A DNA stretch of 64,000 bases, taken from the NCBI GenBank assembly GCA_023151185.1, contig JAKLJL010000001.1, positions 62,001 through 126,000 of the forward strand. The letters run 5' to 3'. The notes beneath the pieces are model-generated. The model worked only from the letters and a program-made list of their open reading frames with translations. It was not told where the DNA came from and ran no database searches. The DNA comes from Bacteroidota bacterium (GTDB lineage: Bacteria; Bacteroidota; JABWAT01). The position numbers and the translations under genes are program-made. Positions within the stretch are counted from its first letter, which is position 1, and every line of letters starts with the position of its first letter. This document shows positions 6,723 to 8,669 of this stretch, one piece after another.

Positions 6723-7283
6723 TTAAATCATATCTCCGAGCAATTCTTTGCTGGGTTGGGGAATCACGACCCGGTTGACCAGAACTCCTTTTTCGGTCAG
6801 AATAGCAGAAGCAGCATCAATGGCTGTTTTAACCGAAGACACATCGCCGGTGCAGGTGAAAAAGGCTTTTCCGCCAAGCGCCATCGCAAGCCTGACTTCA
6901 ATTAACTGCACGGCTGCCGATTTTACTGCTGCATCGGCTGCTTCAATCAGGGCAGAAATCGAAAAACTCTCACAAATCCCGAGTGCATCCAGAAATCCGG
7001 CATGACTTTGCCCGGCGATTCCGGTCAGGACCGATGGATCCACATTCGGGATTACGAAATGATCAATCAGGGAAAACCTGACTTCTGCACAGGCATTTTC
7101 AACTGCAGACTGAACAGCAGCCACTTCGCCAGAAATCAGAACCATATATTTTCCCGAGCAAATCGTTCTGCTGAGCATCAGGTTCACATTTGCTGACTTC
7201 AGCATAACATCTGCTGCCTGATATCCCGCAGCAATACTCGAAAGTTCAATCAGTCCGATGGAAGAAGCTGGTGTTGTAAGCAT
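6723..7283 (-). CDS. PduT-like tandem BMC-domain shell protein (BMC-T)
   Basis: This 186-residue protein contains two BMC domains (about 6-90 and 96-180). Each begins with the characteristic start IGLIELSSIAAGYQAAD or LGICESFSISALIEAAD and continues into KSANVNLMLSRTIC or KSAAVQLIEVRLAM. Such proteins form trimeric tiles of bacterial microcompartment shells. The closest recognised relative is PduT, which binds a 4Fe-4S cluster at the trimer pore through a Cys in its first domain. The equivalent Cys is present here at residue 42 (SRTICSGKY). The gene lies 57 bases downstream of a pduS-like gene on the same strand, the known functional partner of PduT. No hexameric (BMC-H) or pentameric (BMC-P) shell gene, nor a signature enzyme, occurs in the window. 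A TATCTTTT box lies at 7313-7306. Confidence 0.9.
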   Translation of the reverse strand: MLTTPASSIGLIELSSIAAGYQAADVMLKSANVNLMLSRTICSGKYMVLISGEVAAVQSAVENACAEVRFSLIDHFVIPNVDPSVLTGIAGQSHAGFLDALGICESFSISALIEAADAAVKSAAVQLIEVRLAMALGGKAFFTCTGDVSSVKTAIDAASAILTEKGVLVNRVVIPQPSKELLGDMI

Positions 7284-7340
7284 AGTTGTCTAATCAGGTG
7301 AAAGTAAAAGATAGATGAACCCGCCGGGCCGTTCAGGGAA

Positions 7341-8669
7341 TTATCTGGTTTCCGAATTTTCAATTATGACATAGGCCGGGTTAACCTCCCGGATTGTTCC
7401 GGTTACACTTGAATGAATAACCGAACCCAGTTTCCCGGGTTCCGGCCGACCCAGAATATCATTTTTCTTAATTGGCTGTCCTTCGGTCACTGCCGGTGAC
7501 ACTGCATCTCCGACATGTTGCCTGAGGAGTATTTTTACCCATTTCGGGGCTGGCTTTTCATCCCGGTAGGGCGTATGGACATCGAATTCAGTTAAACCGA
7601 GCCGGGAAATCAGTTTTTTTAACGGAACCCGGCGGCCGTCCTTGAACGGGTGGACTTCGACCGGCTTTTTCTGATCCATTTTGATTCCCGCAGCCTTGTT
7701 TTCCCGCTTCCCTTTGTCGCAGGCTTCTTTGGGAAACAAATCCTCCGGGCAGGAATATAAAGTACACAACCCGCAGGAGCAGCAGAGGTCGGCATAGACA
7801 TTCCACATGGCGTTGTTCTGGCCGGTAAAACCCAGTGACCGCATGACTTTATGGGGCTGAACGTCGTAACCCAGCAGATACCTCGGGCAGAATTCTGTGC
7901 AGTAGCTGCATTGGTCGCAGGCTGATTTCCCGATCTGATGCCAGTTTTTTTCGGGCTGATTTTTTCGCTGGACCAATTTGTGATCCTCTGGCAAAATAAT
8001 CAGCCCCCCGGTGGTTTTTGTGACCACTTCGGTTGTGTCGAAGGTGAGTTTTCCCATCATCACCCCACCAACATAAATCCCGTATTTTTCACTGGTGACA
8101 CCCCCGCAAAACCGGATCAGATCGGCAAAGGGAGTTCCGACAGGGACCCAGAACGAGCCGGGATTTTTCACTGCGCCGGTTACACAGATAAATTTTTCGG
8201 ATACAGAATCCCCCTGAGAGGCCTTCCAGATATTCAGAACGGTTTCCACATTGTTAACCACACAGCCCACATTCAGCGGAATTCCGCCCGGCGGCATCAG
8301 GCGCCCGGTTGCGGCGTAAACAATTTCATACTCGTCGCCAGACGGGTAAAAATCGCCAAGTTCGAAAATGGCCAGTCCGGTTCCCGGCAGATGGGAAGAA
8401 ACGGCCTCAATTGCCGCCTGATTTTTCGACTTGATGCAGATCAGTCCGGTTTTGGCGCCAACCTGGTTTTTCATCAGAGCCGCACCTTTTACAATTTCGG
8501 CGGCGTGGTGAACCATCAGTTCAAAGTCTTTGTGAAGCAATGGCTCGCATTCAGCCCCGTTGACTAAAAAATAATCAACGGTGGAACCTGCTTTTACGTG
8601 AGTCGGGAATCCTGCACCGCCGGCACCGACGACACCAGCTTCTGCTATTTGTTCGGGTAATGTCGACAT
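7341..8669 (-). CDS. PduS/RnfC-like Fe-S flavoprotein (electron transfer, SLBB domain)
   Basis: This 442-residue protein has the PduS layout. A glycine-rich nucleotide/flavin loop GVVGAGGAGFPTHVK is at the N-terminus, followed by an SLBB-type middle region. Two 4Fe-4S motifs come next: C251-x2-C254-x2-C257-x3-C261-P, and a second built on C296/C297, C299, C302 and C307. It ends in an RnfC-type barrel-sandwich domain (PVTEGQPIKKNDILGRPEPG). In the propanediol-utilisation compartment, PduS is an NADH- and flavin-dependent cobalamin reductase that docks with PduT. RnfC of the Rnf complex shares the fold. The downstream PduT-like shell gene favours a compartment role, with electrons passing across the shell. 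A TATCTTTA box lies 18 bases before the ATG. Confidence 0.88.
   Translation of the reverse strand: MSTLPEQIAEAGVVGAGGAGFPTHVKAGSTVDYFLVNGAECEPLLHKDFELMVHHAAEIVKGAALMKNQVGAKTGLICIKSKNQAAIEAVSSHLPGTGLAIFELGDFYPSGDEYEIVYAATGRLMPPGGIPLNVGCVVNNVETVLNIWKASQGDSVSEKFICVTGAVKNPGSFWVPVGTPFADLIRFCGGVTSEKYGIYVGGVMMGKLTFDTTEVVTKTTGGLIILPEDHKLVQRKNQPEKNWHQIGKSACDQCSYCTEFCPRYLLGYDVQPHKVMRSLGFTGQNNAMWNVYADLCCSCGLCTLYSCPEDLFPKEACDKGKRENKAAGIKMDQKKPVEVHPFKDGRRVPLKKLISRLGLTEFDVHTPYRDEKPAPKWVKILLRQHVGDAVSPAVTEGQPIKKNDILGRPEPGKLGSVIHSSVTGTIREVNPAYVIIENSETR

Follow-up and report, generated by a model that had tools for sequence, protein, structure and literature searches.

The window, a stretch of 64 kb spanning positions 62001-126000 of contig C11 in a genome of 3.74 Mb and 27 contigs (G000), carries on its minus strand two genes, which encode a PduS-like flavoprotein and a PduT-like tandem BMC-T shell protein (Table 1). 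Both ORFs are intact, as the initial annotation had located them. Their common order and strand are consistent with a single transcript. In the other loci listed the gap between the two genes is usually 3-30 bp, and the same order on one strand is found in 77/77 of those with both genes.

Table 1. Features of the PduS-like/BMC-T locus, with positions counted from the start of the window.
Feature	Positions	Strand	Basis
PduS-like NADH:FMN / iron-sulphur oxidoreductase gene, 442 aa	7341..8669	-	Pfam domains, PduS identity, BMC-T adjacency
PduT-like tandem BMC-T shell protein gene, 186 aa	6723..7283	-	two PF00936 domains, AlphaFold model, PDB matches
Glycine-rich GVVGAGGAGFP motif of the PduS-like protein; expected NADH/FMN site	8604..8636	-	conservation
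First four-cysteine motif of the PduS-like protein, CDQCSYCTEFC, C251-C261	7887..7919	-	conservation, spacing
Second four-cysteine motif of the PduS-like protein, CCSCGLCTLYSC, C296-C307	7749..7784	-	conservation, spacing
Codon of the BMC-T pore cysteine C42; expected [4Fe-4S] ligand	7158..7160	-	conservation, 3n79 alignment
Gap between the PduS-like and BMC-T genes, 57 bp	7284..7340	-	ORF positions

Using Pfam, we found the domains PF01512, SLBB (PF10531), Fer4_17 (PF13534) and RnfC_N (PF13375) in the PduS-like protein, in the order by which PduS has been defined (PMC6325248). Its identity is 36% with the PduS of Salmonella and 38% with that of Ilyobacter, and all cofactor cysteines align with the latter. 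Its two tetracysteine motifs (CxxCxxCxxxC and CxxCxxCxxxxC) have the spacings C251xxC254xxC257xxxC261 and C296xxC299xxC302xxxxC307, identical to those of C264xxC267xxC270xxxC274 and C309xxC312xxC315xxxxC320 in Citrobacter PduS (PMC2982820). Both motifs are kept in 12/12 relatives as well as in 77/77 complete loci among the matches listed. The four domains and the two motifs confirm the initial description as a PduS-like flavoprotein with two intact four-cysteine motifs. A loss of these motifs in close homologues, which had been considered at the outset, was not found, the cysteines being kept in all homologues examined. The stretch GVVGAGGAGFP is largely invariant in 12 relatives and aligns with Ilyobacter PduS, and is predicted to be the glycine-rich NADH/FMN motif.

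The BMC-T protein contains two PF00936 domains (155.9 bits in Pfam) and is 40% identical to Ilyobacter PduT, with the pore cysteine aligned. Its AlphaFold model (pLDDT 89.6) gave as best PDB matches PduT-type shell proteins with a TM of about 0.9, including 3pac, which is PduT with the 4Fe-4S site, and 3n79, which is PduT C38S. The modelled protein is predicted to have a PduT-type fold with tandem BMC domains. Residues 7-182 match residues 3-178 of 3n79 without a gap, so that C42 corresponds to C38 of Salmonella PduT, and ICSGKY at this position agrees with the pore-cysteine pattern of PduT (C-P/S/A-G-K/R/S-Y/F). The earlier claim that the tandem BMC-T protein retains its pore cysteine therefore holds. 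C42 is invariant in an 11-sequence alignment, in 12/12 relatives and in 80/80 loci among the matches listed; the last count is partly due to selection, because one of the two seed patterns contained the pore cysteine, and the 12/12 count, obtained with PF00936 in the phylum set, is free of this bias. Against the NCBIfam model TIGR02526 (eut_PduT equivalog), the protein scored 126.5 bits at a cut-off of 250.3; it is PduT-like and stands outside the named equivalog.

A scan of genome contigs with the BMC-T alignment (517 relatives) kept at least 80 loci. Those listed belong to Ignavibacteria (Melioribacteraceae, Stygiobacter, Ignavibacteriaceae) and Acidobacteriota (Bryobacterales). Stygiobacter electus, a culturable relative, is among the carriers of the pair (L199). 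Among them, 77/80 have a PduS-like gene with both cysteine motifs directly upstream on the same strand, and in the remaining three, where the BMC-T gene lies at a contig end, the locus is cut. The view that redox-active shell tiles are rarely found alone does not apply to this lineage, where the two-gene arrangement is the common one. With regard to the flanks, 42/80 of the BMC-T loci listed have a gene for a SpoIIE-type (PP2C) phosphatase upstream of that for the PduS-like protein; in Melioribacteraceae-type genomes it is directly upstream and sometimes overlaps (L072, L074-L078). In the window this phosphatase gene is absent, and a two-component-type sensor gene is divergent at the locus.

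Genome-wide profile searches revealed no further PF00936, PF03319 or PF00171 match within the 64 kb, which bears out the initial annotation in that BMC-H, BMC-P and aldehyde dehydrogenase genes are missing there; for the cobalamin genes, likewise stated to be missing, the ORF map agrees when judged by eye. Outside the window, the picture is different from that of a shell conduit without a compartment, as it had first been described. Apart from the BMC-T gene of the pair, the only PF00936 matches in G000 are two tandem BMC-H genes at C23:115.7-116.2 kb. PF03319 matches two adjacent BMC-P genes (C26:49.4-50.0 kb) and a single BMC-P gene (C11:141.5 kb), which overlaps the end of a phosphoglucomutase-like gene. 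Together with a candidate aldehyde dehydrogenase (AldDH), the compartment pieces lie at five separate places: the pair itself and, at four others, the BMC-H pair, the BMC-P pair, the third BMC-P gene and the AldDH gene. The genome-wide searches with PF00936 and PF03319 found no locus in G000 with both BMC-H and BMC-P, and since the two share no place, the genome has no main BMC locus.

We considered whether this scatter is an artefact of the assembly, with the pair belonging to a full BMC operon split between contigs, and found no such operon. The pair lies inside C11, a contig of 992 kb, and the single-contig relatives are scattered to the same degree, which rules out the artefact. In G007, BMC-H is found at 2.22 Mb, BMC-P at 3.15 and 1.81 Mb and AldDH at 1.26 Mb; in G029, BMC-H, the two BMC-P genes and AldDH lie at 4.33, 3.55, 4.27 and 1.39 Mb, respectively.

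At its C-terminus, the second protein of the BMC-H pair (L005:17974-18450; C23:115.97-116.45 kb) has a conserved domain of about 45 aa, LTVxELRxLARxxxxLPIxGREISRANKxxLI, which is also present in the homologues L080, L081, L082, L085, L086, L087 and L088. Its best match to Pfam Rho_N (E 0.00025, 21.4 bits) is below the cut-off of 24.9. The model of this domain consists of short helices (pLDDT 93), with transcription factor Rho as a weak best PDB match (E 2.2). Among shell tiles, a domain of this nucleic-acid-binding-like kind would be unusual.

The CoA-acylating AldDH at C2:115.1 kb is one of several aldehyde dehydrogenases found in G000 with PF00171. Its closest PDB match is the acetylating acetaldehyde dehydrogenase 5j78, and it scored 610.2 against TIGR02518, whose cut-off is 620.1. 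The enzyme (568 aa) has a C-terminal extension of about 110 residues, in which two motifs are conserved, S-x4-IEERLRxRAGN and, at the very end, ISxxEIxxIIxxF. These look like encapsulation peptides, because they form short helix-like segments behind a variable linker. In the 15 BMC-bearing genomes of the phylum set, the tail motifs were found on no other protein, and the matches with E values of 0.02-0.8 were housekeeping proteins or chance ORFs, so that no further tailed cargo emerged. A class II aldolase lies near the AldDH in G018 and G030, and this copy has no tail. The same type of enzyme was considered as a signature enzyme and rejected: it occurs in some relatives but is absent from the four genomes of the window's own family (G000-G003). 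A gene for a PCC-domain protein (PF03479) is located 11 bp upstream of AldDH in G000 (L095:8712-9137; C2:114.7 kb) and directly upstream of it in all four genomes of the family. As a candidate for a promoter common to the dispersed genes, we considered TATCTTT-like strings. They occur upstream of the PduS-like gene, the BMC-T gene, the BMC-H gene H1 and the PCC/AldDH genes, with a partial match only at H1 and the AldDH operon; such strings are common upstream of ORFs (8/158 within 60 nt).

The canonical metabolosome core consists of AldDH, a PduL-type phosphotransacylase (PTAC) and an Fe-type alcohol dehydrogenase. Of these, AldDH is present; profile searches showed PduL (PF06130) to be absent from G000 and the Fe-type alcohol dehydrogenase (PF00465) from G000-G003. 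Two relatives have further loci besides the dispersed set. G014 has a compact BMC locus (C45; L083:7065-12193) with BMC-P genes, a PduL-like PTAC, BMC-H, a class II aldolase, acetate kinase and an AldDH with an N-terminal encapsulation-like helix. In G046 (C160; L084:10209-10982), a second BMC-H gene adjoins that of a class II aldolase whose C-terminus bears an encapsulation-like helix, and this locus is PVM-like.

The genes that are scattered over the genome are closely linked by their distribution. In the phylum set of 60 genomes, our own included, the genomes with BMC-H, those with BMC-P and those with the tailed AldDH form an identical set of 15. The AldDH matches in these genomes show 55-77% identity to that of G000; the next matches, of 44% and 42%, are in two genomes without BMC genes, followed by values below 32%. 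The pair is found in 12 of the 15, belonging to families f1, f7 and f11, always together and never outside the 15. PduS orthologues (56-82% identity) are present in exactly the 12 genomes with a tandem BMC-T, adjoining it in 12/12, and elsewhere only RnfC-type relatives of 36% or less were found. A naive count for all 12 falling within the 15 gives 3e-10, with the effective number made far smaller by relatedness; counted by families, the pair gives 0.01 and AldDH 7e-6. The pairwise distances of the PduS-like protein, BMC-T and AldDH correlate across the 12 genomes (0.88-0.96), as shared ancestry alone can also bring about. Shell genes and AldDH without the pair are present in G006, G007 and G029, from three families, and the pair is therefore not essential to the compartment. 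The dispersed compartment is conserved, and the pair is an optional module in it. Beyond the phylum set, a PF00936 search covered 50 further genomes reached through the pair and found additional BMC-H genes in 49. Not counting the two BMC domains of BMC-T itself, 48 carry two or more, G073 carries one and G085 none. The latter, a MAG of 4.8 Mb with the pair at L190 and no other PF00936 gene, is either an incomplete bin or a true loner.

Our observations comprise gene content, scatter, co-occurrence, the conservation of all cofactor residues and the fold. From these we think it probable that, in a dispersed (FRAG-type) microcompartment which oxidises an aldehyde, the pair forms the module for electron transfer, through which electrons leave across the shell. 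We infer a shell that would be built from the BMC-H pair, a BMC-T trimer and the three BMC-P proteins, in whose lumen the acetylating AldDH would be held by its C-terminal tail. There, the enzyme would convert an aldehyde, most likely acetaldehyde, with CoA and NAD+ to acyl-CoA and NADH. The PduS-like protein, presumably docked on the inner face of BMC-T, would oxidise the NADH at its FMN. From there the electrons would run through the two [4Fe-4S] clusters of this protein to the one that BMC-T would hold in its pore, and then to an acceptor that is presumably cytosolic. In this way NAD+ would be regenerated without an alcohol dehydrogenase, which the pair would replace as redox outlet. Such an exit would solve the problem of NAD+ supply, because AldDH makes NADH and the Fe-type alcohol dehydrogenase (G000-G003) and PduL (G000) are absent. 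Another route of NAD+ recycling, e.g. a zinc-type alcohol dehydrogenase, is possible. Tentatively, the compartment may even be a minimal metabolosome, with AldDH as its sole core enzyme. Its redox balance would then be kept not by a lumenal alcohol dehydrogenase and phosphotransacylase but by a PduS-BMC-T wire, along which electrons leave for a cytosolic or respiratory acceptor. Against the proposed electron exit speaks that lumenal recycling of CoA is left without an explanation, since PduL is absent from G000, and that the co-occurrence counts in the phylum are not independent events, the 12 genomes falling into three families.

Electrons might instead flow inwards, with cytosolic donors supplying, by way of BMC-T, a lumenal enzyme that is reductive or radical-activating. 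The direction is not readable from the sequence, and inward flow has been proposed for glycyl-radical compartments, where PduS would feed the activase (PMC6325248). However, the only candidate cargo found in G000 is an NADH-producing AldDH, and the cluster of Citrobacter PduT at +99 mV is fit to accept electrons from NADH rather than to drive low-potential reductions (PMC6325248), which makes this direction unlikely. The Citrobacter protein also offers a precedent for a role as cobalamin reductase, since PduS was shown to be a corrin reductase anchored by PduT (PMC2982820). That the PduS-like protein serves a B12-dependent lumenal enzyme, as in Pdu, with BMC-T merely as its anchor, seems improbable here: no B12-linked gene was noticed beside the pair in the window or in the flanks of the relatives, and PduS homologues are common in B12-independent loci (PMC6325248).

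The initial annotation had offered two further readings. According to one, the pair has taken on a new role in redox transfer, independent of any compartment, and its physical separation from all other BMC genes as well as the MAG G085 would agree with this. Yet all 12 pair-bearing genomes of the phylum set also have BMC-H, BMC-P and the tailed AldDH, and BMC-H genes accompany the pair in nearly all of the further genomes, so that repurposing, for which the shell genes and the candidate cargo enzyme elsewhere in G000 give no support, is very unlikely. The other reading, a satellite of a main BMC locus elsewhere, was right in that shell genes and a candidate cargo do lie elsewhere, but a main locus does not exist. 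Finally, the pair might be what is left of an older pdu or GRM operon in decay and might no longer have a function; the dispersal of the shell genes and the absence of the classical core enzymes PduL and Fe-type alcohol dehydrogenase would agree with such a fate. We can hardly give credence to it, as both genes are intact with every cofactor residue kept, and their arrangement is preserved in Ignavibacteria-type as well as Bryobacterales genomes.

Electron conduction across the shell by PduS and PduT is an open question (PMC6325248). Testing it is difficult where an alcohol dehydrogenase, a B12 enzyme or a glycyl-radical enzyme is present in the compartment as well. For the AldDH of the window's own family, no lumenal redox partner other than the pair was found, and relatives with and without the pair share the compartment, which provides a natural comparison.

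In satellite loci, such as ccmK3/K4 of the beta-carboxysome (PMC8217296, PMC4207490), a shell gene is likewise kept apart, which allows separate regulation. By the definition of 2014, however, a satellite has a main locus with BMC-H and BMC-P (PMC4207490); since G000 has none, the locus in the window is not a satellite. With the Pdu systems of Citrobacter, Salmonella and Ilyobacter, our pair shares the four domains, the cysteine motifs, the pore cysteine and the position of the PduS gene directly upstream of PduT. It differs from them in its identity of 36-40% and in standing alone, outside a dehydratase operon and with no B12 enzyme nearby. Citrobacter PduS is an NADH-oxidising FMN protein with two coupled [4Fe-4S] clusters, which co-purifies with PduT, and an exit of electrons through PduT has been suggested for it (PMC2982820). 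In the glycyl-radical compartments GRM1b, GRM3 and GRM5, PduS and PduT occur with B12-independent metabolism and have been proposed to link lumen and cytosol electrically (PMC6325248). In contrast to these, the pair in the window has no adjacent glycyl radical enzyme and lies outside a compartment operon.

In gene arrangement, the compartment resembles the FRAG compartments, the type under which Sutter et al. 2021 (PMC8217296) have already listed such scattered genes. There, FRAG compartments, with subtypes 1-7, have their shell genes spread over as many as six places, a triplet of BMC-P genes and few enzymes nearby, and are reported from Ignavibacteriae, Gemmatimonadetes, Planctomycetes and others, with their function given as unknown. 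The dispersed compartment of G000 fits this type as it is described there: its shell genes occupy four places, with AldDH at another, and share no joint BMC-H/BMC-P locus, as is also the case in G007 and G029; it has three BMC-P genes, two adjacent and one apart; and it is remote from known enzymes. The main text of that paper makes no mention of PduS or PduT. Overall, the FRAG compartment has in this pair a genuine PduS/PduT-type module, intact and widely conserved, with a function that we predict from sequence. Our data tie the pair and a remote, tailed AldDH to the shell genes by co-occurrence, and these compartments thereby receive a candidate enzyme and a redox module.
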